64,000 nucleotides of DNA, taken from the NCBI GenBank assembly GCA_021811105.1, contig JAJZPM010000001.1, positions 62,001-126,000 on the forward strand, in the 5' to 3' direction. The translations under genes were made by a program, and so were the position numbers. Source of the DNA: Nitrospirota bacterium. Its GTDB lineage: Bacteria; Nitrospirota; Thermodesulfovibrionia; Thermodesulfovibrionales; UBA6898. This document shows, piece after piece, positions 3,059 to 32,715 of the stretch; position 1 is the first letter of the stretch, and the number at the start of each line of letters is the position of its first letter. The notes under the pieces were generated by a model. The model made no database searches. It was given only the letters and a program-made list of their open reading frames with translations, and was not told the origin of the DNA.

Positions 3059-3141
3059 TACTCCTCCTTTCCCTGTCCCTTCAGTGTGGATAGGAAATCT
3101 TTGTCTTTACCCATTTAGGCACTAAAGGAGGTTCGTATTTT

Positions 3142-4416: not shown

Positions 4417-4429
4417 AGGAGATCGATAT

Positions 4430-5641: not shown

Positions 5642-5658
5642 GACCGGGAGGATAAGAT

Positions 5659-8760: not shown

Positions 8761-8771
8761 GAGAAATCAAG

Positions 8772-9098
8772 ATGAAAAAGATCGAAGCATATATCAAATC
8801 TCACAAATTGTCGGAGGTGACCATGGCCCTTCAACACGTTGAAGGGCTGCGCGGCATGAGCGTGCTGTTTGCACGTGGTTTTGGCCATCGAGATGCTGCC
8901 GAGAAACATCCAAAGCTCGATGATCTGATGGATTTTTCGGAGCATGCAAAGATAGAGATATTCTGCAATGACGACCTCGTAGAAGAGCTCGTCGATGTCA
9001 TTGGCAAGAATGCCGTCACAGGTTTGCGTGGTGACGGGAAGATCTACGTCATGGACGTTATTGGCGCCGTGAAAATAGGGAAAGGCAGGATAGAATAA
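8772..9098 (+). CDS. PII-like protein linked to metal efflux
   Basis: 108 residues with the fold pattern of PII signalling proteins: an opening MKKIEAYIKSHKLSEVTMAL like GlnB, a central loop, then DGKIYVMDVIGAVKIGKG like the GlnB C-terminus. The T-loop differs from GlnB: the uridylylated Tyr region is replaced by ARGFGHRDAAEKHPKL. Such divergent PII relatives occur beside heavy-metal RND pumps and are thought to regulate them. The gene begins 11 bases after the pump gene, with GGAG upstream. The ligand, a nucleotide or a metal, is unknown. Confidence 0.85.
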   Translation: MKKIEAYIKSHKLSEVTMALQHVEGLRGMSVLFARGFGHRDAAEKHPKLDDLMDFSEHAKIEIFCNDDLVEELVDVIGKNAVTGLRGDGKIYVMDVIGAVKIGKGRIE

Positions 9099-9114
9099 TG
9101 TAGTAATTGCATGG

Positions 9115-9156
9115 TCTCAGGTGATGCTGCTCGTGATAGGCTGTTTCACCTTGAGA
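9115..9156. repeat. inverted repeat between the efflux and cytochrome-maturation operons
   Basis: Arms TCTCAGGTGA (9115-9124) and TTCACCTTGAGA (9145-9156) can form an imperfect hairpin with a 20-base loop. No run of T follows, so it is not a good intrinsic terminator. It could be an operator or a processing hairpin ahead of the ResB gene. Confidence 0.4.
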
Positions 9157-9201
9157 TATCCTCTGAGTTAGACAGTAGGAATATGCCTAAAGGAGATAGC
9201 A

Positions 9202-10779
9202 GTGGAAAAAGAAAAAGATAAAAATATTACAGATAAGATCTGGGATCTCTTTGCTTCCGTCAAGCTTGCGGTTGTCATATTTGCACTGATATCCGCCACG
9301 TCGGTTGTCGGCACTCTCCTGGAACAGCAGGCTGAACCGGAAAAGAACGTCAAGGTCTTGGTGAAAATGTTCGGTTTTGATCATGAAACTGCGCACCGCG
9401 TGTTAGGGGTTCTTGATAGCATGCATTTCACAAATATGTACCACTCATGGTGGTTTGTGGCCATCCTGCTCCTCTTTGCGGCGAATCTCATTATCTGTTC
9501 CATAGACCGCCTGCCAAGGATAGTGAAGCTGGTAAAGGAGCCCTTAAAGCCCCTTTCGGAAGATCACTTTAAGGGATTCGGGATAAAGAAAGAGGTCGTG
9601 CTGAAGGGAAACCCGGACAAGACGAAGGGAGCGGTCTCTGATGCCGCAAGTAAGGCTTTAGGGTTTCATCTTACAGAGGTGAAGGAGGCTCACGGCTACC
9701 AGCTCTATTCGCAAAAGGGGAATTATACCCGTCTCGGTGTGTATATCACACACTTCAGCATCCTCGTGATTCTTGCAGGGGCGGTAATCGGGATATTTTT
9801 CGGGTTCAAAGGTTTTCTCAACCTTCCCGAGGGCAGGCCCTATTCAGTGGCATTTGCACGGGGAAGCCATATGACGGATTCCGCAGAGTCCGAGAGAATT
9901 CTGGGCGTGCTCGATACCTCTGCCGGGAATCTGTCGTACGCCGCAAAACAGCTCGGCTTGGATGAAGGCACATTGAGATCAAAGATGCGGACATACGGCA
10001 TACAACCCCTTGGATTCCTGATCAGGTGCGACGAATTCAATGTGGATTTCTATGGCGGCACCGACATGCCGAAGGCATACAAGAGCTGGCTCACCGTGAT
10101 AAAAGACGGGAAAGAGGTTTTGAAAAAGGTGATCGAGGTGAACAACCCTTTAACTTATGAGGGGATCACCTTTTATCAGTCAAGCTACGGACTTATCCCT
10201 GGGGCCGGCGGAAACGCCATCTTCAGATTCAAGGTCTCTTCCAAGGATGGCCGGGCAGAAGTCCTGGACCTGAAGTTCGGCAATACCTTTGCCATCCCCG
10301 GCACCAACCTCACAGGGAAGATCGAGGACTTCTCTCCTGCCATCGGTTTCGATGAACGGACGGGAAGGGCGTTTACCTATGCCGAGCAGTTGACCAATCC
10401 CGCAGTATATATGAATTTCTTCGAAGGCGGAAACCGAAAATTCGGCGGATGGATACTGAAGAGATATCCGGAGACATGGAAGATCCCCGATGGGACTGTG
10501 CTTGAGTTCGCCGGCATCTGGGGAATGCAGCACACAGGCCTGCAGGTGAGGAAAGACCCGGGGGTATGGGTAGTGTATCTGGGCTGCATCGCCATGGCCT
10601 TCGGCCTGTTCACCGCCTTTTTTATGAGCCATAGAAAGATATGGATCAAACTTGTGGAAGAGAAGAACGTCACCCGTGTCGTGGTCGGCGCTTCTGCAAA
10701 CAAGAACAGGCACGCCTTCGAGAAGAAGATCGACAGGATGGTGGGCCTTTTGAGTAAAGACAGGGAAGGAGGAAGATAA
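9202..10779 (+). CDS. resB: System II cytochrome c maturation protein ResB (Ccs1)
   Basis: 525 residues. The start IWDLFASVKLAVVIFALISATSVVGTLLEQ-type segment (about residues 12-41) is the ResB hallmark. It is followed by a second and third membrane segment (about 85-105 and 190-212), a large periplasmic domain and a last segment near residue 460. ResB works with CcsA to deliver haem to apocytochromes c on the outer face of the inner membrane. The next gene, CcsA, starts three bases later, so the two form the usual pair. The start may be GTG 9202 with AAGGAG upstream. Confidence 0.93.
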   Translation: MEKEKDKNITDKIWDLFASVKLAVVIFALISATSVVGTLLEQQAEPEKNVKVLVKMFGFDHETAHRVLGVLDSMHFTNMYHSWWFVAILLLFAANLIICSIDRLPRIVKLVKEPLKPLSEDHFKGFGIKKEVVLKGNPDKTKGAVSDAASKALGFHLTEVKEAHGYQLYSQKGNYTRLGVYITHFSILVILAGAVIGIFFGFKGFLNLPEGRPYSVAFARGSHMTDSAESERILGVLDTSAGNLSYAAKQLGLDEGTLRSKMRTYGIQPLGFLIRCDEFNVDFYGGTDMPKAYKSWLTVIKDGKEVLKKVIEVNNPLTYEGITFYQSSYGLIPGAGGNAIFRFKVSSKDGRAEVLDLKFGNTFAIPGTNLTGKIEDFSPAIGFDERTGRAFTYAEQLTNPAVYMNFFEGGNRKFGGWILKRYPETWKIPDGTVLEFAGIWGMQHTGLQVRKDPGVWVVYLGCIAMAFGLFTAFFMSHRKIWIKLVEEKNVTRVVVGASANKNRHAFEKKIDRMVGLLSKDREGGR

Positions 10780-10782
10780 GTA

Positions 10783-11865
10783 ATGGACAGTTCAACATTA
10801 TTCGGGGTCTCGACCATGGCATATATCGTTGCCATGATAATTTATATTACCTACCTCGCATTCGGGAAATCCCAGATAGGGATCACCGCCACAACGGTAA
10901 CGATAATCGGCTTCATCTCTCAGACCTTTGCGATAGGGATGCGGTGGGTCGAATTCAAGAACGTCGGACAGATGGGATGGCTGAGGGCTGCTCCCTTTAC
11001 AAACCTTTATGAATCCCTCATCTTCTTTGTCTGGTGTCTCATCCTGGGGTATCTGATCATCGAATTCAAGTACAAGAACAGGTCGTTCGGGGCTTTCGTA
11101 ACACCCATCGCCGGCCTTGCGCTTGCATTCATCGATCTCACAGGCATGGACAAGGGCATCCATCCGCTTGTCCCTGCTCTTCAGAGCAACTGGCTTCTGG
11201 TACATGTGGTGATGAGCTTCATCGCATATTCCACCTTCGCCCTGGCCTTCAGCACCGGCCTGATGTACCTCATCATGAAAACGGAGAAGAGAAGCGAGCC
11301 TTCCTACATCTTCTGGACAGTCTCCACAGGGATATTCCTCGTGGTGCTATTGGCCATGGGACTGGATTATCTCTCCTTCAAGGTAATGATCAAGAACCCA
11401 GACGTCCTGATCAAGAGCTTCCTTTTCAGGGCGTCATTGCTCAGCAATTCTCCCCTTGTCTCGCTCCTGAGCTGGATTGCCGCCGTCGTCTTCATCTTTA
11501 TGCTCTGGCGATACGGGCATCTACTCAAGAAGGTCATCGGCTCTTTCTCCCTCTCGGCAGATATACTCGACGATATCACTTACAAAAGCATCGCTATAGG
11601 CTTCCCTGTCTTCACGCTGGGAGGACTTATCTTCGGTGCGATATGGGCAGATCAGGCATGGGGCGTGTACTGGAGCTGGGACCCGAAAGAGACCTGGTCA
11701 CTGATCTCGTGGTTCGCCTACGCCTTCTTTCTACATGCGCGGCTGCTCAGGGGGTGGAGGGGCAAGAAGGCCGCAGTCGTCGCGGTTGTAGGTTTTGTGC
11801 TCGTGATCTTCACCTATCTGGGAGTTAACCTGCTGCTTTCAGGGCTGCATGCATATGGATCGTAA
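10783..11865 (+). CDS. ccsA: cytochrome c biogenesis protein CcsA/ResC
   Basis: 360 residues with about eight membrane segments. The haem-binding WWD-type motif is WGVYWSWDPKETWSLISW (about residues 290-307), diagnostic of the CcsA/CcmC/CcmF haem-handling family. Conserved His residues flank it. It forms the System II synthetase with the ResB just upstream (GGAGG ahead of the start). The stop lies about 50 bases before the start of the disulphide-forming protein. Confidence 0.93.
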   Translation: MDSSTLFGVSTMAYIVAMIIYITYLAFGKSQIGITATTVTIIGFISQTFAIGMRWVEFKNVGQMGWLRAAPFTNLYESLIFFVWCLILGYLIIEFKYKNRSFGAFVTPIAGLALAFIDLTGMDKGIHPLVPALQSNWLLVHVVMSFIAYSTFALAFSTGLMYLIMKTEKRSEPSYIFWTVSTGIFLVVLLAMGLDYLSFKVMIKNPDVLIKSFLFRASLLSNSPLVSLLSWIAAVVFIFMLWRYGHLLKKVIGSFSLSADILDDITYKSIAIGFPVFTLGGLIFGAIWADQAWGVYWSWDPKETWSLISWFAYAFFLHARLLRGWRGKKAAVVAVVGFVLVIFTYLGVNLLLSGLHAYGS

Positions 11866-11914
11866 TAATTGCCGGACGGATATTCTGAAAGCTACTTTAT
11901 CAGAGAGGACTGAT

Positions 11915-12877
11915 ATGAACGCGACACGAGTTGTTTCCGGCTTGCAGAAAAGGCTGTGGATTTTGCCGGTTCTGTGCATCCTCACGATAATCATCGGGCA
12001 GCTATGCGCTGCAAAGTGTGCCTATATCCAGGGAGATATCCTCGGCATTGACCTGAATATCTTCGGCATACTTTTTTATTCCCTGCTGCTTGTCTCACTC
12101 TTGGTATATAGAAACTTTTATACTAAGGATTGGCTCATAAAGGTTATAGCCGCTGTTGTGGCCGTGGGCGTCGGGGCGGAGTTGATCCTCATTAAGTTCC
12201 AGGTCGAAAACAGCGTCTATTGCCCGAAATGTCTTATCTCAGGTTTCTTTTTCCTTGTCCTGTTTTTCCTGCTCGCCCGGCACCTGGGAAAATGGGTCAT
12301 AATCCTTCTGATCGTGGCCGGGCTGCTCTTCACCTCTTTCACCTTCAACGGGTCCGTCATTCCCTCATATGCGGATGAGGCATACCCACAGTTTGGTGCC
12401 GACAAGGCGGCGATCGAGCTTATCGTCTATTCGGATTATTTTTGTTTATACTGCAGAAGGATAGATCAGCAGACGAACATAATCCTGAGTAAAATAAAGA
12501 AACGAGCAAGAATACTCTTTGTTGATGTGCCGCTTCACCCACAATCCCTTGATTACTCGGAGATATTTCTCTATACATGGTTTGTTTCCGGGAATAACCT
12601 GGAAAACGCTTTCTTGGTGAGGGAGCTACTTTTTGACTTGGCTGCAAAGAAAACCGATCAGACCAGGGTCATTGCCCTGCTGAAGTCGAAGGGTATCCAG
12701 CTAAGTATTGACAGGGAGAGGGCACGGTCAATATTTCGCAGATTTTACAACGAATCCATAAAAACAGACAAGGTAAGCGCAACGCCGACAGTAGTCATCG
12801 TAAGGGGCGGTGAAAGGAAAAAATATGTGGGAGCTAAGGCGGTCCTTAAGGCTTTGGAGGAGCTCCTTTCAACGTGA
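11915..12877 (+). CDS. VKOR-like disulphide protein fused to a thioredoxin-fold domain
   Basis: 320 residues from the chosen start. The first half has about five membrane segments with cysteine pairs placed as in bacterial vitamin K epoxide reductases: CAAKC in the first loop and YCPKC as the quinone-side pair. The second half is a periplasmic DsbA/DsbG-like thioredoxin fold with FCLYC as the CxxC centre and SATPTVVI as the cis-Pro loop. Together they would oxidise thiols and pass electrons to quinone. Next to ResB/CcsA it may control the redox state of CxxCH motifs during cytochrome maturation. ATG 11915 has AGAGAGGA upstream; an upstream in-frame ATG at 11849 overlaps ccsA. Confidence 0.85.
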   Translation: MNATRVVSGLQKRLWILPVLCILTIIIGQLCAAKCAYIQGDILGIDLNIFGILFYSLLLVSLLVYRNFYTKDWLIKVIAAVVAVGVGAELILIKFQVENSVYCPKCLISGFFFLVLFFLLARHLGKWVIILLIVAGLLFTSFTFNGSVIPSYADEAYPQFGADKAAIELIVYSDYFCLYCRRIDQQTNIILSKIKKRARILFVDVPLHPQSLDYSEIFLYTWFVSGNNLENAFLVRELLFDLAAKKTDQTRVIALLKSKGIQLSIDRERARSIFRRFYNESIKTDKVSATPTVVIVRGGERKKYVGAKAVLKALEELLST

Positions 12878-12942
12878 TTCAATATGCATATGGAGCGGAA
12901 TGACATGGAAGAGGGGATAGCGGTCTTAAATGCCCCAGTCAT

Positions 12943-14862
12943 ATGGGATTGTGGTATCTCATGAATGAACTTTTCAGAGATAGAAAAGTTAGATGGTTAT
13001 TGGCAGCGCTGCTGGCAATTGTCCCTCTTGAGATATTGTCTCTTTTCTCGATCCATCTTCCATTATGGATCGAGCTTCCTTTGCTGATTGCTGTAATTGT
13101 CGTATTTGGCAGAAAGGTCTTCATAGGCGGCATCAGAAGTCTTATGAAACTGAACTTTGCCGACATTGACCTCCTGATGACGATAGCAGTTCTCGGCGCA
13201 CTTTATCTTCGACAGTTTGAGGAGGCAGCGATCATCGTTGTTCTCTTTGCACTCGGAGAGACCCTTGAGGAATTCGGCGTAGAGAGAAGTCAGGCAGCCC
13301 TAAAAGGCCTTATCGACAAGACTCCCAAGTCAGCGCGCATCAAAGAAAAAAACGAAGAGGTTCCTATAGAAGATGTCGAAATAGGCGAAATTATGATTAT
13401 TAAACCCGGTGACCAGATTCCATTGGACGGAGAAATCATCTTTGGAAACTCTCTTCTTGATGAAGCGACAATAACCGGCGAACCCCTTCCGGCGAGTAAG
13501 TACATCGGAGATACCGTTTATGCCGGCACGGTCAATATGCAGGGCTATCTGGAGGCGAAGGTAATTAAGAAGGCAAAGGACTCTGCACTTGCGAAAATAA
13601 TCGAACTGACCTTCAGATCTGCTGAGAAGAAAGCATCGTCACAAAAATTTATCGAAAGATTTGCGGAAATTTATACTCCTTCAATAGTAATTGCTTCTCT
13701 CTTGCTCATCCTGATTCCTGTTGCACTATTGGGCAAACCGCTTGACCCTTGGCTTACACAGGCATTGACTCTGCTCATTATTGCCTGCCCATGCGCTTTG
13801 GTAATATCCACACCCATCGCTATTTTCTCGGCTGTAGGAAATGCGACTGGGAAGGGAGTGCTAATCAAAGGCGGAAGATTTATCGAGGAGATGGGTAAGG
13901 TGCACGCCATTGCTTTCGATAAGACCAGAACGTTAACAAAAGGTGAACCCGTGGTCTCCAACGTTGTCCCCTTCAACGGGTTCACGGAAGAAGAGGTAAT
14001 CGCATGCGCTGCCGGGATGGAAGCATTTTCGGAACATCCTATTGCAAAGGGCATCCTGGATAAATCAAAGAGAATAGGCGCCAGGCTCCACGCGTATGAG
14101 AATTTTAGGGCTATTCCAGGCAAGGGATTAAAGGGTGAGTGCATGGTCTGTTTCGATAAACACCACTGCATGGGGAATATAAAGTTTGTCACAGAGGAGC
14201 ATGCGATAGAAGAAACAGTTTTAAAGAAAGTTGAGGAGTTCGAGGAACAGGGGAAAACAGCAATCGTGATTAGCGACAACAAAAGAGTCAAGGGGATAAT
14301 CGGAATTGACGATGAAATCAGGGAAGAGAGCAGGCCGCTGATAGATGCCCTTTTGAAGATGAATATCGTACCGGTAATGCTGACAGGGGATAATAAGGCA
14401 GCAGCGGATTTTGTTGCATCACACCTTAAGATCGAGGTTGTGAAGGCAGCATTGCTCCCGAGTGAAAAAGTGGAAGAACTATCAAGGCTTATTCAACGGT
14501 ACAAGCATGTTGCCATGGTGGGTGACGGAGTAAATGATGCACCCGCCCTTGCCACTGCGTCTGTGGGCATTGCAATGGGCGCAATCGGTTCGGACGTTGC
14601 CATCGAAAATGCAGACATCGCACTTATGAACGACAAGATCGGACTGGTGGCTTACCTCGTTGGCTTGGGTAGGGCGTGTGCCAAGAAAATACGCTACAAC
14701 ATAATCTCGGCTGTAACGGTGAAATTCCTTTTCTTGTTCCTGGCTATCGTGGGATTGAGCAATCTGGCGATGGCGATCTTTGCCGATGTCGGGGTTACTG
14801 TGCTGGTAATCATGAATAGCTTGAGATTGTTTGGATATGAAGATAAAGGAGGAAAGCAATGA
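12943..14862 (+). CDS. heavy-metal P1B-type ATPase, unusual phosphorylation motif
   Basis: 639 residues with eight predicted membrane segments and no N-terminal HMA domain. The metal site is ACPCAL (Cys282-Pro-Cys284). The nucleotide domain carries SEHPIAKGI (the HP motif), and the phosphorylation domain has MLTGDN and VGDGVNDAPALATA. The catalytic motif at residue 326 reads DKTRTLTKGEP instead of DKTGTLT: the near-invariant Gly is Arg. DNA at 13918-13938 supports this directly (GAT AAG ACC AGA). CPC plus the overall form suggests Zn/Cd/Pb or Cu export, but the substrate is uncertain. The downstream lipoprotein gene overlaps its stop (ATGA), so the two are co-translated. Confidence 0.9.
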   Translation: MGLWYLMNELFRDRKVRWLLAALLAIVPLEILSLFSIHLPLWIELPLLIAVIVVFGRKVFIGGIRSLMKLNFADIDLLMTIAVLGALYLRQFEEAAIIVVLFALGETLEEFGVERSQAALKGLIDKTPKSARIKEKNEEVPIEDVEIGEIMIIKPGDQIPLDGEIIFGNSLLDEATITGEPLPASKYIGDTVYAGTVNMQGYLEAKVIKKAKDSALAKIIELTFRSAEKKASSQKFIERFAEIYTPSIVIASLLLILIPVALLGKPLDPWLTQALTLLIIACPCALVISTPIAIFSAVGNATGKGVLIKGGRFIEEMGKVHAIAFDKTRTLTKGEPVVSNVVPFNGFTEEEVIACAAGMEAFSEHPIAKGILDKSKRIGARLHAYENFRAIPGKGLKGECMVCFDKHHCMGNIKFVTEEHAIEETVLKKVEEFEEQGKTAIVISDNKRVKGIIGIDDEIREESRPLIDALLKMNIVPVMLTGDNKAAADFVASHLKIEVVKAALLPSEKVEELSRLIQRYKHVAMVGDGVNDAPALATASVGIAMGAIGSDVAIENADIALMNDKIGLVAYLVGLGRACAKKIRYNIISAVTVKFLFLFLAIVGLSNLAMAIFADVGVTVLVIMNSLRLFGYEDKGGKQ

Positions 14863-15500
14863 AAAAACTAATACTGTCTCTTGGAACGGTGCTCTTGATG
14901 AGCAGCCTTTTGGGGTGCGGAACTGCTGCGAAGGAAATCCAGTCGAGATCACTTGGCGGGAAAACGGATGTCTTTAAGGAAGTAAGTAATGGGAGTGCAA
15001 TTCCCAAGGGATTTGCTGATCTAATTATTAAGGCGAACATCAAGACGCATGTGGAAGGCTACTACGTTCTCGAATCAAAGGAGTCCCTGCACGGCAAGCA
15101 GGGATATCCGTTTGTCTTTAACATCGACGGCCAAGGCATTACTTGGAAGCTTGCTGGCGTTAAGGATATAAAGCCTTCGTATGAAGCGGATGGGAAGACA
15201 AGCCGCGATCCCGAAGCAGGCGAAGGACTCAAGTATGTTATTGAAAAAAAGTTGCGCCTCGCTATAGGGAGGCACAGGGTATATTTTGGTTTGCCCGAAG
15301 ATAAATACGCTGTGGAATTTGAAATAGCCCTGGGGGATGGAGAAATAGGTGTGCTTGAGTTTAAGCCGATCTACAGGACAAAGAGAATTCCCACGAGGAT
15401 ACCGACTTTTTTGAAGGGGATAGACAAATATGCTGCGTTCCTTGACGGAGTACCAGTGACAATCTCCGTAGAATCTTCGTACGGTGGGGAAGAAAGATGA
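14859..15500 (+). CDS. lipoprotein of unknown function
   Basis: 213 residues. The N-terminus is a lipoprotein signal (MSSLLGCGTAA, lipobox LLGC). AAAGGAGG precedes the start, and the ATG overlaps the ATPase stop codon, implying translational coupling. The mature part is soluble and mixed alpha/beta, with no motif I recognise. Coupling to a metal ATPase suggests a periplasmic or outer-membrane metal-related role, but this is inference. Confidence 0.75.
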   Translation: MKKLILSLGTVLLMSSLLGCGTAAKEIQSRSLGGKTDVFKEVSNGSAIPKGFADLIIKANIKTHVEGYYVLESKESLHGKQGYPFVFNIDGQGITWKLAGVKDIKPSYEADGKTSRDPEAGEGLKYVIEKKLRLAIGRHRVYFGLPEDKYAVEFEIALGDGEIGVLEFKPIYRTKRIPTRIPTFLKGIDKYAAFLDGVPVTISVESSYGGEER

Positions 15501-15885
15501 GAAAATAGAGAGAGAAGTGAAGGCTGCATGGGCACGTAGAGGAGGAGGATGAATGCGCATGGATAGTACCGAGGGAAAAAAGATATACTGAGGCAGCATG
15601 GTTTTTTGGAATGCAATGGCTACTGGGTACGGGATGACATCTGCATACTCAGCGAGCTCATTGTCGAGAGTTCCCCCAGTTTCATCAGCGGCTTTCTTGA
15701 TGCAACAGAGCGTAGGACTGTGAGTCGAACTAACGGAAGCTTTTCAGCGGAAGTTTCAGACCATAGCAAGGAGGCTGATGATTTCAAAGAGTGAGGAGGA
15801 AATGAGTTGTCAGTAATGGTGAAGTCCCTATATTCACAAATAATGCGACCCAAGCTGGCAACGCCTAATCTATACAATGACCGAA
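15501..15885. other. convergent gap between the lipoprotein and PIN genes
   Basis: 385 bases between convergent genes. Short open frames exist on both strands (for example 15606-15794 +), but none has a convincing ribosome site. No clear intrinsic terminator is seen, although a T6 run occurs at 15602-15607. Confidence 0.4.
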
Positions 15886-17547: not shown

Positions 17548-18615
17548 CTATTTAAGGAGCTTCAGGAGATCGTTGTAAAACACGAAAACGACCAGCATGA
17601 CCAGGGAGGAAACCCCCAGTCTCTGGATGAGCAGCATTGTCTTGGGCTTCAAAGGCTTGCCCCTCAGGAGCTCCAAAAGCAGAATGATCATGAATCCGCC
17701 ATCCAAAGCAGGGAAGGGGATAAGATTGAAGACACCTATGTTGACGCTCAGAAAAGCTATCGTGAAGATGAAATTCTCGATGCCTATGCTCATCTGCTGG
17801 CTTGCCGTCTTGACGATCATTATGGGACCGGCGAGGTCCGCAAGCGGCAACTGTCCCTTGAGAAGCATGACGAAGGCCGAAAAGACCAGACTTGTCATTT
17901 CCCAGGACTTGCTCGTCGCAGTCCTTAAGGAGCCGATGACACCCTGTCTGTAGACTGTTTTTGTCCCTTTCGGGCTGACACCGAGAAAGCCAGTCTCCGA
18001 AGGCCGATTCAAGGCGTCATATCCTATTCGCTTCTCGGGTATTACAGTCGTCAAGATGACATTGCCGGCCCTCTGAAGCTTCAAAGGCAGAGACACCCCG
18101 GGATTTTCCTGAATGACTCTTATGGCGTCTTCATATATCAGAACGTGCGTTCCGTTGATTTCCGTAATCCTGTCTCCGGAAAGCATGCCGGCCTTTTCCG
18201 CTGGTGAGCCCTTCGAAACGGTCCCAATCTCGGGCGACAGGACGGAGATGCCGCTCCAATAGACGGCAGTCAACAGAAAGATCGCAAGGACGATATTGAA
18301 GAAGGCCCCGGCGAGCACAATCAAGGCCCTGTTTCTGACGGGCTGATGCCGGAACGATTGTGCGGCTTCTTGTTGGGGAACATCCTCTTCAGGGTCCTCT
18401 CCCAGCAGTTCGACATATCCCCCGAGCTGTATGAGAGATATCACGAATTCCGTTCCCCTGACATTTGTCCTGAAGAGGACAGGACCAAACCCGAGTGAGA
18501 ACTTCTTCACCTTCACCCCCGCCGCCCTTGCCGCCACGAAGTGTCCGAATTCGTGCGAGACGACTATCAGACTGAACATTCCCGTGATTGCCAACGCCTG
18601 GTATAGAATTTCCAT
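17548..18615 (-). CDS. rseP: RseP-type site-2 membrane metalloprotease
   Basis: 355 residues. VVSHEFGHF (about residue 21) is the HExxH zinc site in the first membrane segment. A single PDZ domain follows (about 125-205, GSPAEKAGMLSGDRITEING). NLIPFPALDGG (about 290) is the third zinc-ligand motif of the M50 family. RseP enzymes cut anti-sigma factors and signal peptides within the membrane. A good ribosome site (AAAGAGGAAAGG) precedes the start. It begins 37 bases after the stop of the RpoC-like gene on the same strand, an unusual neighbour. The link to the element's own sigma factor is speculative. Confidence 0.92.
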   Translation of the reverse strand: MEILYQALAITGMFSLIVVSHEFGHFVAARAAGVKVKKFSLGFGPVLFRTNVRGTEFVISLIQLGGYVELLGEDPEEDVPQQEAAQSFRHQPVRNRALIVLAGAFFNIVLAIFLLTAVYWSGISVLSPEIGTVSKGSPAEKAGMLSGDRITEINGTHVLIYEDAIRVIQENPGVSLPLKLQRAGNVILTTVIPEKRIGYDALNRPSETGFLGVSPKGTKTVYRQGVIGSLRTATSKSWEMTSLVFSAFVMLLKGQLPLADLAGPIMIVKTASQQMSIGIENFIFTIAFLSVNIGVFNLIPFPALDGGFMIILLLELLRGKPLKPKTMLLIQRLGVSSLVMLVVFVFYNDLLKLLK

Positions 18616-18652: not shown

Positions 18653-21600
18653 TCACGAGTCCGTTGTCAATCCCGTACCCCCAAAAAGTCTCCCCAATTT
18701 CTCAAGGGCCTCCAATCTTTTCTTCTCCTTCTTCGAAAGAGACCTTTGGTGCATCCGCGGGTAGAGCCTGCTCGGATGCCCGGTGCCGATCGGCACGGGC
18801 GCCCCCAGTATGATCCTCTCTTTCGTCCCCTTGAGATAATCGACCTTGTTCCTCACCGCTGCGTTAGAGAGGATCTCTTTGGTATTCTGGAACGATGATG
18901 CCGATATCCAGCTTTCGGCCTCAAGGGATGCCTTTGTCAGACTTACAATGGCCGTCATGGCCCGGGCCTTACGGCCGAGTGTGCTCTGGTTCTCACGCAG
19001 GAATTCCTTCATGGGGATCCTTTCGCCGGTGACAAAATCCGTGTCTCCTGGATCGGTAATAACAACCTTATTCAGCATCTTCCTCAGGATCACCTCGAAA
19101 TGCTTGTCATTGGTCTCGACACCCTGCATCCTGTAGACCTTTTGAACCTCATCGATGATATAGGCAGCGGCGGCCTCGGTCCCTTTGACCCCCAGGACAT
19201 CTTCTATGGCAATAGCGCCGTCGAGGAGCAGATCACCCGCCTTTATCTGGTCGCCGTCATAAAAATTCAGCTGTTCGCCCATGCCCACACGGTATTCTCT
19301 CTTCTCACCGCCATCGGCGACCACTTCTACCGGCACGTACCCCTGCCGGGGAGGAGCGATCCTCACCTGACCGTCTATTTCTGCCATAACAGCCTTGTTC
19401 TTGACCTTCCTTACCTCCAGAAGCTCGAGTACCCGCGCAAGTCCTCCGGTAATGTCAATATTCTTGGCCGCCTGTTTGGGGATCTTGGCGATTACATCGC
19501 CCGGACTTACGGCCTGACCCTCACGGACAACCGGCATGGCGCCTATCGGGAGCTGGTATTCCCTCTCGCCGATGATTATCTTCGGGACGTCATCAGCCAG
19601 GATGGACTTTATGAAAATCCTGGTGACGCCGGTCATTGGATCGTTCTCCTCCCTGGCGGTTATGCCTCTTATGACGCCTTCAAACCTTGCCTCCCCTTCG
19701 CTCGTGGATATAATGGGCAAATTGAAAGAATCCCATTCGGCTATGCGCTGCCCCTTATTTACCGATTCTTTCTCGCTCGCAAAAAGATATGAGCCGTATG
19801 GCAACCGGCCCACTTCGCGCTCAATGCCGTTTGTCTTGAGAAACAGACGGGCGTTTCTGTTGACGATAACCCTTTGCCCCTCCCTGTCGGTAACGGTCAC
19901 CGCGTCTTTGATAAGCACCGTCCCTTCTTCCCTTGCCTCGATAGAGTTCTTGTGGTCGCCACCCGAAGCGCTGCCGCCCGAATGGAAGGTCCTCAGGGTG
20001 AGCTGGGTCCCGGGCTCACCGATGGACTGAGCGGCCATGATCCCGACGGCCACGCCGATATCCGGCAACTTCTTCCTCGACAGCTCATGCCCGTAGCACA
20101 TGGCGCAGATGCCGTACTCAAGGTCACAGAAGAGAGGGGACCTTACCGATACCTGCGTGATACCCAGTGAAACGATCTTTTCGGCCATAGACTTCGATAT
20201 CACCGCGTTTTTTTCTATCAGAATTTCACCTGTCAGCGGGTCTCTCACTTCCATGACCGAAATACGGCCGGTAGTCCTCTCTTCCAGCGGTATGATGACG
20301 ATATCTTTTTCGGTCAGAGCTTTCATCGTAAAACCTTTGAATGTTCCGCAGTCCGCTTCGTGGATGATGATATCGCTTGCGATATCCACGAGCCGTCGAG
20401 TGAAATAGCCTGCATTTGCCGTCTTGAGCGCTCCGTCCGCCCTTCCTTTTCTCGCGCCGTGACAGGAAAGAAGGTATTCGAAATAGGAAAGACCCTCTTT
20501 GAAATTACTCTTGATGGGCATCTCGACGATATCTCCATTTGGCTTGGCCATCAAACCTCTCATGCCCGCGAGTTGTCTTATCTGTTCCCTCGAACCCCGC
20601 GCGCCGGAATCGGCCATCATGTATAGACTATTGAATTCCCTGGCGCGCCTTTTTTCATCCGGTGAGAGATCGCCCTCCGCAACGCCGAAGTTATCCATCA
20701 TAGCGTCGGCTATCCTGTCGGTCGCTTTCAACCAGAGGGAAACGATCTTGTTGTGCTTCTCCTTTTCCTCCATGAGGCCGGCCCTGAATTCTTTCCCGAC
20801 CCGATCCACCTCTCTTTCAGTCTCCTCGATGATCCGCTGCTTTTCCTTAGGGATCGTTGCATCGGCGATCGAAAGGGAGATGCCGGAGAGCGTTGCATAC
20901 TCGAACCCCGCGTCCTTCAAGCGGTCCAGGAGGAGCACGGCCTCGTTCCTGCCGGCTACCTCTATCGTCTTTTCAATGAGGATGCCGATATCTTTTTTCC
21001 TGACGTTTCTGTTCGTATCTTTAAAAGCGATTGTTTCTGGGAATAACCCACTGAAGATTATGCGCCCCGGTGTAGTTTCAATCATCTCACCGTCGATTCT
21101 CACCTTGATCGAGGCCTGCAGATCGACGACTCCATGGCTGTGAGCGATGAGCGCATCTTCCTTATCGGCAAAGACCTTCCCCCTGCCTTCGGACATTTTG
21201 TCTTCCTTTGTGAGCCAGTAAAGCCCGAGCACCATATCCTGGCTTGGAGACATCGCCACTTTGCCGCTCGCCGGTGAGAGAAGATTATTTGGAGAGAGCA
21301 TGAGAGCCCGGGCCTCTTCCTGGGCCTCTTTCGAGACCGGCAGATGCACTCCCATCTGGTCTCCGTCGAAGTCCGCGTTGAAACCGGAGCAGATAAGAGG
21401 ATGCAGGCGTATGGCGCGCTCCCGTACCAGCACAGGCTCGAAAGCCTGCATTGACAGCCTGTGAAGGGAAGGGGCCCGGTTCAGTATCACCACCATCTTC
21501 TTCATCTCATCTTCCAGCGCCTGAATTGCGGATTCGTGCAGCATATCGCAGAGTCTCATCGCATGCTTCAGGGAGTAGGCTATGCCGATACGCCTCATTC

Positions 21601-22696
21601 TCCCGTAGACAAAGGGCCTCGCCAGCCCCATCGCCAACTCCAGGGGAATTCCGCACTGGTGAATCTTCAGGAGAGGACCCGCGGTTATGACCGATCTCCC
21701 CGAATAATCCACCCTCTTGCCAAGCAGGTTTCTGCGCAGCCTTCCGTTTTTGCTCTCGATGTGGGATGTCAGCGATTTCAATGACTTTTTCCCGGTTCTG
21801 TTCTTTGTCTCGTATTTCTTGTCCAATAAGGCGTCGACAGACTGCTGAAGCGCTTTTTTGGCAGGCACGATAAAAAAGGGGAGGGCATGATTTTCGGTGA
21901 AGAACTTGAGCCTGTTATTTTTTATGATTATTCGGCCATATAGGTCATTGAGCTCCGAGCTCGCCAGTGTCCCATTATCGAACCGAAGAACAGGCCTCAA
22001 ACCCGCCGGGAGTACGGGAAGGACGTCGATGACCATGCGGCCCGGCTCCACGCCTCCTCTTGCAATATCCCGCAGGAGCAGCAGCCTCTTGTTGTTCCTC
22101 CTGGAAGGAGGCTGCCTCCTGAGTCTGTTTATCACCTCAGCTGGGTCCAAGCCCTGGATCAACTCCTTGACCGCATTCCCGCCTGTCTCCGCCCTAAAAC
22201 GCTCATCCTTCGTTTCCCCAGTAGAAGTCTCCGCCTTATACTGAATGAACTCGACTGCCGAAATGAACGACCCTTTCACGAACCCGCTCTCGCCGCTCGC
22301 CATGACAAGATAAATATCGCAGTTCACAAGCCGATCAAACTTCCGGGGAGGCACGTTGAGGTACGTAGCGAGTATTCTTCTGAACCAGGGATGAACTACG
22401 GGGTGCGCAAGCGTTATCTTACCGAAAGTCTGCCGTCTTACGATGGGATCATTGGTTATGACGCCGCATGCAGGGCACTGTATTCCCTTCCTGGAATACC
22501 TTTTGCCGCATGCGCACTTCAGATACTCCACTGGCCCGAAGATCTTCTGGCACATGAGACCTCCCGGAACGGGCAGGCCTGTTATCGTATCGACGGTTTT
22601 GTGTGTTTCTACCTCTCCATTGGCAAGCGCTTCTATCTTATCTTTCGAGAGCAGGCCGATAGATATCCCCTCAAGCTCTTTGACGGTGTGTATCAT
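18653..22696 (-). CDS. divergent RNA polymerase beta' subunit (RpoC-like)
   Basis: 1347 residues, close to full-length bacterial beta'. Domains occur in order. The N-terminal zinc ribbon has Cys 61, 63, 74 and 77. The rudder/switch region follows (SKNGRLRRNLLGKRVDYSGR). The catalytic loop NADFDGDQM at 440-448 keeps the three Mg-binding Asp. MRGLMAKPNGDIVEMPI then leads to the bridge helix (HGARKGRADGALKTANAGY, about 746-764). The second zinc site is Cys 783, 857, 864 and 867. The trigger-loop region is IMAAQSIGEPGTQLTLRTFH (about 886-905). All key catalytic residues seem intact. There is no rpoB beside it, unlike the universal rpoB-rpoC order. It is preceded by a winged-helix gene and parB and followed by rseP, so it appears to be an element-borne extra beta'. 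Partner subunits are unknown. Confidence 0.95.
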   Translation of the reverse strand: MIHTVKELEGISIGLLSKDKIEALANGEVETHKTVDTITGLPVPGGLMCQKIFGPVEYLKCACGKRYSRKGIQCPACGVITNDPIVRRQTFGKITLAHPVVHPWFRRILATYLNVPPRKFDRLVNCDIYLVMASGESGFVKGSFISAVEFIQYKAETSTGETKDERFRAETGGNAVKELIQGLDPAEVINRLRRQPPSRRNNKRLLLLRDIARGGVEPGRMVIDVLPVLPAGLRPVLRFDNGTLASSELNDLYGRIIIKNNRLKFFTENHALPFFIVPAKKALQQSVDALLDKKYETKNRTGKKSLKSLTSHIESKNGRLRRNLLGKRVDYSGRSVITAGPLLKIHQCGIPLELAMGLARPFVYGRMRRIGIAYSLKHAMRLCDMLHESAIQALEDEMKKMVVILNRAPSLHRLSMQAFEPVLVRERAIRLHPLICSGFNADFDGDQMGVHLPVSKEAQEEARALMLSPNNLLSPASGKVAMSPSQDMVLGLYWLTKEDKMSEGRGKVFADKEDALIAHSHGVVDLQASIKVRIDGEMIETTPGRIIFSGLFPETIAFKDTNRNVRKKDIGILIEKTIEVAGRNEAVLLLDRLKDAGFEYATLSGISLSIADATIPKEKQRIIEETEREVDRVGKEFRAGLMEEKEKHNKIVSLWLKATDRIADAMMDNFGVAEGDLSPDEKRRAREFNSLYMMADSGARGSREQIRQLAGMRGLMAKPNGDIVEMPIKSNFKEGLSYFEYLLSCHGARKGRADGALKTANAGYFTRRLVDIASDIIIHEADCGTFKGFTMKALTEKDIVIIPLEERTTGRISVMEVRDPLTGEILIEKNAVISKSMAEKIVSLGITQVSVRSPLFCDLEYGICAMCYGHELSRKKLPDIGVAVGIMAAQSIGEPGTQLTLRTFHSGGSASGGDHKNSIEAREEGTVLIKDAVTVTDREGQRVIVNRNARLFLKTNGIEREVGRLPYGSYLFASEKESVNKGQRIAEWDSFNLPIISTSEGEARFEGVIRGITAREENDPMTGVTRIFIKSILADDVPKIIIGEREYQLPIGAMPVVREGQAVSPGDVIAKIPKQAAKNIDITGGLARVLELLEVRKVKNKAVMAEIDGQVRIAPPRQGYVPVEVVADGGEKREYRVGMGEQLNFYDGDQIKAGDLLLDGAIAIEDVLGVKGTEAAAAYIIDEVQKVYRMQGVETNDKHFEVILRKMLNKVVITDPGDTDFVTGERIPMKEFLRENQSTLGRKARAMTAIVSLTKASLEAESWISASSFQNTKEILSNAAVRNKVDYLKGTKERIILGAPVPIGTGHPSRLYPRMHQRSLSKKEKKRLEALEKLGRLFGGTGLTTDS

Positions 22697-22714: not shown

Positions 22715-23584
22715 TTACTTGTTCTTTATGACCTCGGCAGCCCTGCCATCGATCATAAGCCACTTCGTTCCGACAAAGCCCTTTGAGGTGAAATCGTTCA
22801 GAAGAGAAAAAAAGACCATGAGACGAAGGTCTTCCTTGGCGAGTTCGTCGAACTTTCTTCTCAGCTTCTCGATGCGCTGAGGTTCCCTGCACAGGATCAG
22901 GGATGGCAACTTCTTCTTTTGAGCCAGCCCCCTGGCCTTGGCTACGACATAGTCGGGGTCCTCCGTAGAATTATCGAACTCCAGGGCGAGCACCTTCTTT
23001 AAAGGGGCTTCCTGTCTTCGCGGGATACTTATTGTGACAAGGAGATCGGGGAATCGTCCTCTTCTGTTCTTTGACTCGCTCCTCAAGGTGTTTTCATCCT
23101 TTATCGAAAAGCCATAATGAACCGCCCCGGCCTCCCGCTTGATGGATCGCACGATATCGGACACTGCAAGCTCGTGAGTGACACCGTATTTGTGAGGCAG
23201 GGTCATCCGGATATGTTCTCGTGCATAGCCGTCAAGCACCAGGATGTCGCGAGATGTCGGGGTGAGTGAGTAAAGAGTGAAGATGCCCCTGCCGGTCATA
23301 GCCCTGTAACGCCTGGAGGCGATAAGACCGCTCTTTTTGAGCTGTGAGAGCCTGACAACCAGGACCCTTCTTGCAAGATATATCTGTCGCGATTTGATCT
23401 CGTGCTTTTCAGTCATCTCCGTCCGATCGCTTTCAGGATCATCGGGATCATCTGCAGGCCTGCGATACCTCTTGCCTCTTTTGAAAAGCTCCAACTGTTG
23501 CTGAATAAACCCGAGTTGGGCGGGCCCGCTCGACAGTATCCTGAAGATATTCAAATCACGCGAAGTTACATCTGCATTTCCCAT
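22715..23584 (-). CDS. winged-helix protein, replication-relaxation-like
   Basis: 289 residues. The N-terminal half looks like a winged-helix domain (VRLSQLKKSGLIASRRY, then a GRGIFTLYSLT wing). The C-terminal half has GVTHELAVSDIVRSI, then RFPDLLVTI and VLALEFDNS. That order (H...D, PD, ExD) resembles the replication-relaxation family, which combines a winged helix with a PD-(D/E)xK-like fold on plasmids. The assignment is by pattern only. It lies four bases after parB and 18 bases before the RpoC-like gene, so all three are probably one operon. It may be a DNA-binding regulator or nuclease-like plasmid factor. Confidence 0.6.
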   Translation of the reverse strand: MGNADVTSRDLNIFRILSSGPAQLGFIQQQLELFKRGKRYRRPADDPDDPESDRTEMTEKHEIKSRQIYLARRVLVVRLSQLKKSGLIASRRYRAMTGRGIFTLYSLTPTSRDILVLDGYAREHIRMTLPHKYGVTHELAVSDIVRSIKREAGAVHYGFSIKDENTLRSESKNRRGRFPDLLVTISIPRRQEAPLKKVLALEFDNSTEDPDYVVAKARGLAQKKKLPSLILCREPQRIEKLRRKFDELAKEDLRLMVFFSLLNDFTSKGFVGTKWLMIDGRAAEVIKNK

Positions 23585-23588: not shown

Positions 23589-24524
23589 CTACTCCTTTGA
23601 GGAGACGCCATCCGCAGGGCCCAAAGTGGCAAGAGAGGAGACCTTTTCCCTGAACGCCTCGATGCTCTTGAAGATATCCTCCTTCGTCTCCATTGGGAGG
23701 CGAACAGTTTTTCTCAGCCTTATCGACAGGACAAGTTCGCTTTCGGTTTCCCTCAGATACCGGGGAGCAGACGGCGCAGCCTCCGGTTGAACCTCTTCCC
23801 TGTCGGATCTGACGACCTTTTTCACCATCCAGTCGATGCAGCGGATTATCCCGCCCTCCATGTTTTTCAAGACCCTCATGAACTCTCTGTTGTTTGACTT
23901 CTCAAGCCTGTACACCTTGCCCGCAACTTCCGCGAAGGCTTTCGCCGCACTGTATGTGATCGACCTTGCCTGTGCCTCGAATATCTCGGCCACCTTCGGA
24001 TGCTTGTAGATCTCTTCCCGTATCTTCAGGTATTCGTTGACGTGCTTCCTGCTCTTGCCCACCTTGCCGGCGACCAGTCCGGTGTCCCTGTAGTGCTCCA
24101 CGAGAATGTGATAGCAGTTCATGGTCTCGACGAAATTGAGGTCCTTGCGGGCAGTATTCTCAAGGGCCGCCTTCGTCTTCATGTCCTCCTCGGTCGCCTC
24201 TCTTACGATGGCCGGGATATGGGACTTGCCTGCCTTCTTCGAACCTCGCCATCTTCTTTCTCCGGAGAGGATCTCGAAGAGAAACTCGCTGGTCGGATCG
24301 GCGACTTTCCTGACGATGATGGGCTGCAATACACCCTCTTCCTTGATCGATTCGGCTATCTCATCGATGTCGTCGAAAACCTTCCTGGGCTGGAATGGGT
24401 TGGGCCTGATCTTGTGCAAAGGAATCGAAACGACCTGTTCTCCAGGCAGGATCTCGTCAACGCCGCACTGGAGCTTCTCCGTATCGACTTTCTTACCATC
24501 CGACTTTCCGTCCGATTGCTTCAT
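23589..24524 (-). CDS. parB: ParB-family partition protein
   Basis: 311 residues. IPLHKIRPNPFQPRKVFDD and ILSGERRWRGSKKAG are the ParB/Srx boxes; the second corresponds to GERRxRA, the CTP-binding loop. ALENTARKDLN follows, then a helix-turn-helix region (LVAGKVGKSRKHVNEYLKI). It would bind parS-like sites and help segregate the replicon. No ParA lies next to it, although parA may be outside the window. AGGAGG precedes the start. It heads the operon that includes the RpoC-like gene. Confidence 0.9.
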   Translation of the reverse strand: MKQSDGKSDGKKVDTEKLQCGVDEILPGEQVVSIPLHKIRPNPFQPRKVFDDIDEIAESIKEEGVLQPIIVRKVADPTSEFLFEILSGERRWRGSKKAGKSHIPAIVREATEEDMKTKAALENTARKDLNFVETMNCYHILVEHYRDTGLVAGKVGKSRKHVNEYLKIREEIYKHPKVAEIFEAQARSITYSAAKAFAEVAGKVYRLEKSNNREFMRVLKNMEGGIIRCIDWMVKKVVRSDREEVQPEAAPSAPRYLRETESELVLSIRLRKTVRLPMETKEDIFKSIEAFREKVSSLATLGPADGVSSKE

Positions 24525-24545: not shown

Positions 24546-24564
24546 TTACGAAAATATTACGAAA
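24546..24564. repeat. direct repeats upstream of parB
   Basis: TTACGAAA occurs at 24546-24553 and 24557-24564, one helical turn (11 bases) apart and about 22 bases upstream of the parB start. This arrangement suits an operator for autoregulation or a small binding site for ParB or the winged-helix protein. Confidence 0.45.
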
Positions 24565-29218: not shown

Positions 29219-29260
29219 TTGACAGTTAGGTCATTTGGGTAATATAATAAAGACAAATGA
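29219..29260 (+). promoter_or_regulatory. promoter with operator for the toxin-antitoxin pair
   Basis: TTGACA (29219-29224), an 18-base spacer and TATAAT (29243-29248). The -10 box sits between inverted arms TCATTTG (29231-29237) and CAAATGA (29254-29260), a plausible operator for autorepression by the antitoxin 24 bases downstream. Confidence 0.7.
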
Positions 29261-29283
29261 CCAGTCAGAAAGGAGAAGGACAC

Positions 29284-29745
29284 ATGGAAGCAACGGCACT
29301 CAGCGATGATGCGCTTATCAGGAGGGTATTGACCGTTTTCAGCCAGAAAGGCTTGGAGAAAGTGCATGGCGGTGGTAAAAAGCAGATTACATCCGTTATA
29401 AAATCAGGTCTTTCTTTCAAGGCAGGAGTCAATGTCAAAGAGCAGCTAGGGCTATCTGATCGGGAAATCGCCGAAACGATAGGTACGAGCGAAAAGACCC
29501 TCCAGAGGAGGAAAAAGAAGGGCGAACACTTCACGATGGTAGAGAGCGATCGCCTCTTCCGCATGACCCGCATCTTTGCCTTGGCAAGTGAGGTGCTGAA
29601 GAGCGACGATCGTGCAAGGAAATGGCTCCACAGGCCTCAGTTTGGTCTTGGGGGAGAAGTGCCTATCGAGATGATGAAGACGGAGTCCGGAGCCAAGGAC
29701 GTTGAAGAGCTTCTCTATCGCATTGCCTATGGCGATGTGGCATGA
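29284..29745 (+). CDS. Xre/ParS-type antitoxin (DUF2384)
   Basis: 153 residues. The N-terminal part carries a helix-turn-helix (LSDREIAETIGTSEKTLQRR). The C-terminal part has the MbcA/ParS/Xre pattern: RLFRMTRIFALASEVL, a WLHRPQFGLGGEVPIEMM stretch (the PxxxLGGxxP loop) and VEELLYRIAYGDVA at the end. Antitoxins of this family neutralise RES toxins by plugging their active site. ATG 29284 has AAAGGAGAAGG upstream; ATG 29257 falls within the operator. The stop overlaps the toxin start. Confidence 0.88.
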   Translation: MEATALSDDALIRRVLTVFSQKGLEKVHGGGKKQITSVIKSGLSFKAGVNVKEQLGLSDREIAETIGTSEKTLQRRKKKGEHFTMVESDRLFRMTRIFALASEVLKSDDRARKWLHRPQFGLGGEVPIEMMKTESGAKDVEELLYRIAYGDVA

Positions 29746-30215
29746 TCTCCTGCTATAGACTTGTCATCAAGGATTACGCGGCTTTCGCTCTTACCGGCAA
29801 TAGCGCTGCCGAACACCCGGGAAGGTGGAATCACAGGGGATACCGCGCGGTATATGCGGCGGAAAGCAGGGCTCTTGCCTCCCTTGAGCTTTACGTGAAT
29901 CTCGGTGACGAAGACGTGATCAATTTGGAATTCTCGCTGTTTGCGCTCCATATACCTCAGGAGGTCAGAATTACGGATCTAAAACTCAAAGACCTGCCCA
30001 ATGACTGGAGAAGCATCCCCCCATCCGATTCCACCAGGGATATAGGGACTAAATGGCTTGCAAAAGGGGAGACAGCAGCGCTGACGGTCCCCTCCATTAT
30101 CATCCCCGAAGAGAAGAATTTCATCCTCAACCCCGGTCACCCGGATTTCCAGAAGATAAAGAAGATCGGTCCTCTGGCTTTCTCCTACGACCCCCGAATA
30201 ATCAAGCTTTCCTGA
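29742..30215 (+). CDS. RES-domain toxin
   Basis: 157 residues of the RES family, ADP-ribosyltransferase-fold enzymes that deplete NAD or modify host proteins. GRWNHRGYRAVYAAES (Arg and Tyr) and ALASLELYVN (Glu) are the characteristic active-site region; PSIIIPEEKNFILNP is the typical C-terminal motif. The start overlaps the antitoxin stop (ATGA), ensuring tight coupling. It would stabilise the element or act in abortive defence. Confidence 0.9.
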   Translation: MISCYRLVIKDYAAFALTGNSAAEHPGRWNHRGYRAVYAAESRALASLELYVNLGDEDVINLEFSLFALHIPQEVRITDLKLKDLPNDWRSIPPSDSTRDIGTKWLAKGETAALTVPSIIIPEEKNFILNPGHPDFQKIKKIGPLAFSYDPRIIKLS

Positions 30216-30840: not shown

Positions 30841-31455
30841 ATGCCCAGAAAGAAGAAGCTCTACAACAACACGGAGAGCGAGATGAAGACAGTGCTCGAG
30901 TCCCGCGGTCTCTGGAGCAGCCGCTTTGTTGAGGAAATAGGGATGAAGTACAAGAAGATGATCGTGCTTCTCGCCGCTCGGTCTCTCCAACTCGGCAGCA
31001 GACTCGAGATGGAGGACCTCCTCCAGACCGGATACCTGGCGCTCTACGACGCTCTCGACAGGTACAAGGACGTTAAGAACGGCTCCAAGCTCAGCACCTA
31101 CTGCTATAACCTCATCAGGTGGCGCATGATTGAGAAAAGCGGACTCGGTGATCAGGAAGCTGTTTCACTCGACGCGCCCGCCATCCCTGCCAATGCGAGC
31201 GACGACGATGACCCTCCCTCGATCTGTGAGACGATCCCTTCGCAATTCCCAACGCCTTTCGACGAAGCCCTCGGCAAGGAGATAAGGCATTCCGTTGAGC
31301 GCCTTCCCCCGCGCCTTCAGGAGGTCATAAGGATGCGTTATTCAGACGATATGTCTTTCGACGACATCGGTAAGGTCTTCGGTGTGTCAAGGCAGAGGGC
31401 CGAGCAGCTGGAAAAGAAAGCCATCTCGCTTCTCAGAAGGAAGCTGGCTGTTTAG
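30841..31455 (+). CDS. element-encoded sigma-70-family factor
   Basis: 204 residues with two sigma domains. Region 2 includes LEMEDLLQTGYLALYDALDRY and LSTYCYNLIRWRM (like FSTYxxxWIR). Region 4 is RLPPRLQEVIRMRYSDDMSFDDIGKVFGVSRQRAEQLEKKA, split here by its HTH (DDIGKVFGVSRQRAEQLEKK). An acidic linker (DDDDPP) joins them; region 1.1 and a full region 3 are absent. It could direct RNA polymerase to element promoters. AGAGGTGA precedes the start. The clamp-like gene starts 77 bases later. Confidence 0.88.
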   Translation: MPRKKKLYNNTESEMKTVLESRGLWSSRFVEEIGMKYKKMIVLLAARSLQLGSRLEMEDLLQTGYLALYDALDRYKDVKNGSKLSTYCYNLIRWRMIEKSGLGDQEAVSLDAPAIPANASDDDDPPSICETIPSQFPTPFDEALGKEIRHSVERLPPRLQEVIRMRYSDDMSFDDIGKVFGVSRQRAEQLEKKAISLLRRKLAV

Positions 31456-32688: not shown

Positions 32689-32715
32689 ATGAATCCAGGG
32701 AGTGATTCGCGTTGA
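32689..32715 (+). promoter_or_regulatory. leader mini-ORF overlapping the helicase start
   Basis: GAAAGGAG (32673-32680) is followed by ATG AAT CCA GGG AGT GAT TCG CGT TGA, an eight-codon leader. Its TGA overlaps the TTG start of the helicase by two bases (TTGA). The helicase start has no site of its own, so translation may be coupled through this leader. Confidence 0.45.

Follow-up and report, generated by a model that had tools for sequence, protein, structure and literature searches.

Is a complete rpoC gene that stands apart from rpoB the ordinary β′ gene of its cell or an extra copy, and what could an extra copy serve? The question is raised by an open reading frame (ORF) at 18653-22696 on the minus strand of a 64,000-nucleotide stretch of DNA from a Nitrospirota bacterium (hereafter the window, C34:62001-126000; the genome, G000, comprises 3.94 Mb in 93 contigs, 100% complete and 2.63% contaminated). 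The subunits of core RNA polymerase serve as the textbook example of genes that do not travel, because each has to fit many partners. A first-pass annotation had nevertheless proposed that this gene, here called the orphan rpoC, is an extra, catalytically intact copy on a mobile element. The analysis showed that it encodes a full-length, selected and catalytically complete β′ subunit, usually in an operon with genes for ParB and a winged-helix protein, and that the gene moves horizontally between lineages. Mobile RNA polymerase genes were already known; what sets this one apart is a single subunit of bacterial type, on an element with the gene content of a conjugative one, tied to ParB.

The orphan gene and the host polymerase genes

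The ORF ran for 1347 codons without any internal stop. Its product scored 1215 bits against the NCBIfam rpoC equivalog (TIGR02386, cut-off 963.5) and matched all of Rpb1 domains 1-5 at E values of 4e-17 to 3e-54, and a chance match was excluded on these grounds. The first zinc site (C70, C72, C85 and C88, Escherichia coli numbering) and residues D460, D462, D464, R425, R933 and H936 were intact in 8/8 full-length orphan copies, while the second zinc site (C814, C888, C895 and C898, same numbering) and the NADFDGD catalytic triad were present in 10/10 copies. The two partial copies kept whichever zinc and catalytic residues they covered. The description of a complete, diverged β′ (1347 aa) with both zinc sites and the catalytic loop was therefore confirmed.

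The host genome held the ordinary rpoC at C41:253054-257106, directly after the sole rpoB found in a PF00562 search of the genome. No rpoB was present beside the orphan rpoC, as the first-pass annotation had reported, and the search for a partner RpoB elsewhere returned only the ordinary gene. The searches for rpoA (PF01000) and rpoZ (PF01192) each gave a single gene. The cell has two β′ genes and, at profile-search sensitivity, one of each other core subunit. Both findings named in advance as refuting an extra copy, a genome lacking another rpoC and an rpoB next to this gene, were looked for and did not occur. An ordinary gene in a rearranged chromosome was rejected on the basis of the rpoBC pair on C41. 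A recent duplicate of the host rpoC was likewise rejected, as the orphan RpoC was 43-45% identical to the host copy (about 43-47% to full-length ordinary Nitrospirota copies) and fell outside the Nitrospirota rows. In 9/10 carriers of the orphan gene an ordinary rpoC was also observed, either complete or in part; for the tenth (G001) a second match was counted, below the matches listed.

Conservation was scored on an alignment of 7 orphan and 35 ordinary rows, using 736 E. coli positions conserved in at least 97% of the ordinary rows and presumed region borders. Orphans retained most of these columns in the N-terminal part of the trigger loop (0.91), the pore/funnel (0.81) and the active-site barrel with F-loop (0.77). 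Retention was lowest (0.44-0.52) in the zinc domain (0.44), clamp and jaw (0.50), rim helices (0.51), N-terminus and insert, and lay at 0.60-0.72 in the other regions, including 0.67 for the omega-side C-tail columns. Eight changes (T760K, A761S, I774L, L783R, T786G, L796F, M932L and I937S) were present in 10/10 orphans and 0/35 ordinary rows, and are located within and near the bridge helix and trigger loop. The bridge-helix signature reads ARKGR(A/S)DGAL in orphans versus ARKGLADTAL in the ordinary copies displayed. The orphan β′ has kept its catalytic residues; the moving parts next to them share a common retuning, and several surfaces that face factors have drifted. Its full order of domains is that of ordinary RpoC, with the two zinc sites, the catalytic triad, a bridge helix and a trigger loop in common; it differs in its separate clade, its eight fixed changes, the lack of an rpoB neighbour and its mobility.

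Distribution, descent and operon context

The orphan rpoC was found in 10 genomes, nine of one order (labelled Nitrospirota; the order is probably Thermodesulfovibrionales) and one metagenome-assembled genome (MAG) labelled Bacteroidales, with copies 45-96% identical to that of the window. A protein search of 101 relatives gave matches in 100, and the orphan copy stood out by identity in six genomes, namely G000 itself and five others with identities to the window copy of 96% (G071), 80% (G089, in pieces), 56% (G014), 54% (G063) and 53% (G001), compared with 44-47% for full-length ordinary copies. Extending the search to 395 genomes of the phylum (E 1e-300) gave at least three further carriers among the matches listed, G373 (50%), G368 (53%, partial) and G252 (45%), and may have missed weaker or broken copies. 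The G252 copy was distinguished as an orphan by the second, ordinary copy in its genome together with the bridge-helix signature. Across 84,980 species the signature gave 13 matches, of which 8 were this gene and 5 were chance frames. One of the 8 was the MAG labelled Bacteroidales (UBA8908, G404), which has another rpoC on a different contig; the other seven records were labelled Nitrospirae, Nitrospiraceae, Nitrospira or Thermodesulfovibrio. Neither the protein patterns nor the bridge-helix pattern matched any of the viral contigs searched.

Phylogenetic analysis with the host copy included, as the first-pass annotation had proposed, placed the ten orphan rows in one clade outside the Nitrospirota rows, with SH-aLRT support of 99 in a first tree and 100 in a second, both built by a quick method and carrying a long-branch warning. 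Each tree drew on 10 of the 30 ordinary "ord" rows, those whose locus numbers can be divided by three, and 2/10 orphan rows were partial. The first tree included three non-rpoC rows, none with the catalytic motif, two of which appear to begin like rpoB. In the second tree two of these were replaced, one was omitted along with a phage row, and two host rows were added.

Horizontal movement of the gene between lineages is shown by the disagreement of orphan and host RpoC identities between carriers. G000 and G071, from different families, shared 96.5% identity in orphan RpoC versus 80.0% in host RpoC (849 aa, partial host copy). G000 and G014, from the same family, shared 56.5% in orphan RpoC versus 89.4% in host RpoC. 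The orphans of G368 and G404 were 90.4% alike, in bins labelled Nitrospira and Bacteroidales, respectively.

Selection was assessed from nonsynonymous (dN) and synonymous (dS) divergence in the 24 genes of at least 150 aa common to G000 and G071. For rpoC, dN was 0.0174 and dS 0.1023 (53 nonsynonymous and 90 synonymous differences), giving a dN/dS of 0.170, and a pseudogene was rejected for this pair on that value. The corresponding dN/dS values were 0.137 for the winged-helix (RR) gene and 0.119 for parB. A PIN-domain gene reached 0.421, and one ORF at 1.385 is probably not a gene. The dS ranged from 0.059 to 0.341 in 21/24 genes. The orphan copy of G089 contained unknown bases and broken frames.

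The contig of the window also carries F-type transfer genes (TraK, TrbI, TrbC, TraH, TraG_N, TraU, TraN and a coupling protein). They map to the left of the window, and the distance from rpoC to the closest of them is some 31 kb in G000 and about 7 kb in G071. Judged by these genes, the element carrying the orphan rpoC is conjugative. No relaxase was found among the genes annotated on the element, and no capsid or terminase among the annotated subset of ORFs, which includes the transfer genes. The proposal of an extra, catalytically intact rpoC on a mobile element was borne out by the ordinary rpoBC in the genome, the conjugation genes on the same contig and the 96.5% versus 80.0% identities with G071.

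The neighbours named in the first-pass annotation (parB, a winged-helix gene and rseP) were verified with Pfam, the winged helix by a predicted model and fold search. The RR gene (22715-23584, minus strand) encodes a 289-aa Replic_Relax protein (PF13814). Its N-terminal winged helix is PadR-like, and its second domain weakly resembles a restriction nuclease in fold (AlphaFold2 pLDDT 84, Foldseek), with no solved structure matching better than E 3e-3 in Foldseek. The parB gene (23589-24524, minus strand) has the ParB N-terminal domain, a helix-turn-helix below the Pfam cut-off and the GERR motif, which was kept in 7/7 aligned ParB proteins. Downstream of rpoC lies a gene for an rseP-type M50 site-2 protease with a PDZ domain (17548-18615, minus strand), also present in G071 and G014 and partially matched in G089.

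The order parB-RR-rpoC was observed in 8/9 loci with flanks read (G000, G071, G089, G014, G063, G001, G373 and G404), and no rpoB was seen beside any orphan copy with flanks read. The G373 trio adjoins genes that are presumably rsfS and rlmH. In G368 the unit was split: the RR match lies on C123, along with a frame resembling ParB and a hit to the beginning of rpoC. A model built from eight RR proteins and run on the 176 genomes of the order matched 18 of them, and the nine scoring at least 334 bits were the nine known rpoC carriers of the order. Six of the 12 lower-scoring RR places were inspected. In four (G000:C38, G015, G064 and G089:C43; L164, L165, L166 and L169), RR is divergent from a neighbouring parB-like gene, an integrase-like gene is also present (tested with Pfam in G000:C38 only), and no rpoC was seen. 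G020 and G096 showed neither layout. These islands resemble the rpoC unit in having a ParB-like gene and a more distant RR side by side, and are unlike it in the divergent genes, the integrase-like gene after parB and the lack of a visible rpoC. As a side observation, the ParB-RR module is perhaps common in the order, in small islands with an integrase-like gene.

Possible roles of the orphan subunit

The likeliest reading, judged slightly more probable than not, is that the element β′ displaces the host β′ in some core enzymes, yielding a hybrid RNA polymerase that serves the element. The element β′ would join host α2, β and ω in a minority hybrid core enzyme, host β being assumed because no other β was found. 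The first-pass annotation had suggested a possible exchange of the subunit into the host enzyme, which fits the lack of a second rpoB, rpoA or rpoZ. With its outer surfaces diverged (at the clamp, jaw, rim helices and zinc domain, and to a lesser degree at the sigma-binding helices), the hybrid may ignore some host factors and accept those of the element, and it would then transcribe element genes under element control. ParB, of a CTP-dependent clamp family, and the winged-helix RR are the best candidates for directing or regulating that transcription. A more specific version, in which the lone β′ borrows host α, β and ω and the ParB clamp with the winged-helix protein as docking partner brings the hybrid to element DNA, is a tentative possibility. 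No description of such a partition-protein-directed takeover of transcription was found in the literature searched.

Promoter choice may be added by a sigma factor. The sigma gene claimed for the element is real (30841-31455, plus strand; sigma-70 family, regions 2 and 4, best matches FliA/WhiG-like); the associated idea of a dedicated sigma was not upheld as a general rule, the gene being present in 4/10 carriers. A model built from the four element sigmas scored 303-350 bits in G000, G071, G001 and G014, but did not exceed 63 bits in G063, G089, G252, G368, G373 and G404, a count limited by incomplete bins. The motif CGTAATAT (24554-24561, minus strand), a putative promoter -10 element or operator, starts 37 nt upstream of parB, and GTAATAT was present upstream of parB in 5/8 carriers. 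The pattern [CT]TTTT-N9-[CG]GTAATAT occurred 5 times in the G014 contig (0.0 expected), with single instances in G063 (0.2 expected) and the chromosomal controls (0.0 expected). The five sites in G014:C12 (8418, 9914, 19260, 30336 and 43770, in 72 kb) include four that sit 30-66 nt before gene starts.

Several findings weigh against a hybrid enzyme under element control. The strongest doubt concerns the assembly of the orphan β′ with host β, a step that we infer. The conservation pattern is not clean, as the bridge helix (0.66) and the C-terminal part of the trigger loop (0.60) retained about as much as the sigma-binding helices (0.61) and C-tail (0.67). Positions 275, 282, 294, 295, 297 and 302, which we take to be sigma contacts, differ among the orphan copies. 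The element sigma is confined to the minority of carriers given above, and TAATAT also stood upstream of parB in 4/4 rpoC-less parB-RR islands examined; a private element promoter was dropped as evidence, the motif not being specific to rpoC carriers. The tie to the operon is broken in G252, where rpoC, on one contig with what is apparently another transfer element, has its RR 17 kb off on the opposite strand, and where a search at E 1e-3 gave no parB relative. The gap between the carriers and the next best RR place (182 bits) arises partly by construction, 7/9 carrier RRs being in the model and that of G071 a near copy, while the G368 RR (334 bits) is independent of it. All ten carriers are bins or assemblies, none of them known to be an isolate. 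Composition was no marker of the element either, C34 80-140 kb lying 0.137-0.192 from the C34 right end (internal 0.079), compared with 0.193 for chromosomal C41.

Other roles would account for parts of the same evidence. A spare β′ could make the polymerase resistant to an inhibitor, either an antibiotic that targets the bridge-helix/trigger-loop pocket or a protein from a phage or competitor that attaches to the clamp, zinc domain or jaw. It would then protect host and element together while serving all genes. Actinomycetes have spare resistant β genes, and inhibitors are known that target the jaw or the bridge-helix pocket. The eight changes fixed in 10/10 orphans against 35/35 ordinary rows, in and near the bridge helix and trigger loop, and the strong divergence of several outer surfaces suit this role, which is still considered unlikely given that the tight link of the gene is to parB and RR. 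A narrow literature search found no paper on such evasion or on the streptolydigin-site idea. Less probable again is a role in replication or partition, in which the ParB-RR module would rely on the β′ for synthesis of a transcript priming or opening the element origin, or β′ would hold the partition complex. The operon with parB and a family named for replication-relaxation, and the replication genes nearby, point in that direction, as do 12-bp-period repeats upstream of parB in G063 and G404, where 0/200 shuffles reached the observed value, and a weaker signal in G001 (0.005, strongest lag 25). However, the repeats were not significant in G000, G071, G014 and G089, parB-RR pairs occur without rpoC, and a DnaG-type primase is encoded at C34 139247, if that lies inside the element. 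G373 gave 0.005 at lag 9, and no palindromic parS common to carriers was found. The iteron-like 12-bp-spaced repeats of three carriers lie at L049:7898-7969, L111:12446-12493 and L051:7360-7426.

A poison subunit, competing with host β′ and lowering host transcription during transfer or against invaders, would explain why β′ alone is carried and must draw on host subunits, and is judged improbable, as a mere competitor would not need the catalytic residues that all copies kept. Least credible is a mis-binned contig or another organism's ordinary gene. The carriers with labelled records are MAGs, further rpoC pieces occur in the G089, G368 and G373 bins, and C135 (L112) of G373 (G407; bin SKS1.bin28) holds another rpoB-rpoC pair that is probably contamination. 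Against an artefact stand the ten genomes without rpoB beside any copy with flanks read, the 8 true places of a private bridge-helix signature, and obg with a ribosome hibernation factor at the right end of C34. These two genes mean that the element is integrated or that C34 is chimeric; unless it is chimeric, an artefact is refuted for the window's copy.

Comparison with known systems showed partial likenesses to the proposed hybrid enzyme. The multi-subunit RNA polymerases of phages, among them the mReC lineage and those of jumbo phages like AR9, also place a large subunit of the enzyme on a mobile genome. The mReC lineage is reported to encode both β and β′ and to form a clade distinct from cellular enzymes (PMC7481178), unlike the present case of β′ only, of bacterial type, on an apparently conjugative element in a genome whose one rpoB is the ordinary one. 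Phages AR9 and PBS1 matched the RpoB query. Rhizobium phage RHph_TM3_3_6 (MN988524.1, L136) and Vibrio phage Va2 (MW073017.1, L141) have a β′ with NADFDGD, and neither tblastn nor PF00562 found a β in them, making these lone β′ genes in phages. They differ from the orphan in being 28-31% identical to it, in length (1127 and 1192 aa) and in lying on phages, and the stretches read contained no parB-RR operon.

In PLSDB, 69 records matched (those listed were about 39-42% identical to orphan RpoC) and 6/69 were inspected. Plasmid precedents from C. difficile, S. baltica, L. adelaidensis, S. liquefaciens and S. meliloti were rejected, as rpoB adjoins rpoC in each; the Fusobacterium record had no gene annotation at the match. 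Records L135, L137, L138 and L139 carry ordinary rpoB-rpoC, mostly with ribosomal genes, and are probably chromosome pieces. To our knowledge, plasmid RK2 encodes no polymerase subunit. Its KorB-KorA pair resembles ParB-RR in joining a clamp of the ParB family to a small DNA-binding protein on a conjugative plasmid, where the two act at promoters; it differs in that it is reported to occlude RNA polymerase holoenzyme from them (PMC11790492). The neighbouring genes suggest control by ParB and RR, for which this pair offers a precedent. The open-licence literature searched, PMC12363816 and PMC10783043 included, gave no description of a lone rpoC from a phage or a conjugative element.

The findings imply that one catalytic core subunit has travelled alone, kept intact by selection, over a period sufficient to give rise to a diverse clade of its own. 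If it assembles with host subunits, such cells would run two polymerases differing only in β′, and which β′ surfaces set promoter choice and factor use would become directly testable. A lone β′ would also be a possible route by which plasmids control transcription without a whole polymerase.

The surrounding element

The sigma gene is followed by a series of plus-strand genes. They encode a weakly matched DNA sliding-clamp-like protein (31533-32615), a DEAD/DEAH helicase (32712-34631, relatives in G014, G063, G001 and G404), a dUTPase (34864-35316), a B12-type ribonucleotide reductase (35365-37506, relatives in G001, G014, G063 and G404), a RuvC-like Holliday junction resolvase (38570-39076), an SbcD-like nuclease subunit (39182-40936), an SMC/SbcC-like ATPase (40797-43487), a DnaN beta clamp (43480-44634), a RecG-like helicase (45328-47118) and a single-strand DNA-binding protein (46995-47540, true start probably further in). 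Two sliding-clamp-type proteins (31533-32615 and 43480-44634) are therefore encoded on one element. No tRNA gene was found in 26 scanned stretches.

A caspase-domain protein (PF00656) is encoded beside the replication genes at 47891-48865 on the minus strand. At 29257-30215 (plus strand) an Xre/MbcA/ParS antitoxin gene is followed by a 157-aa ORF resembling a RES toxin, both 99% identical in G071. The ORFs of window positions 1-15885, part of C34:50242-77885, had no relatives in the G071 element, and this region looks like metal-transport cargo.

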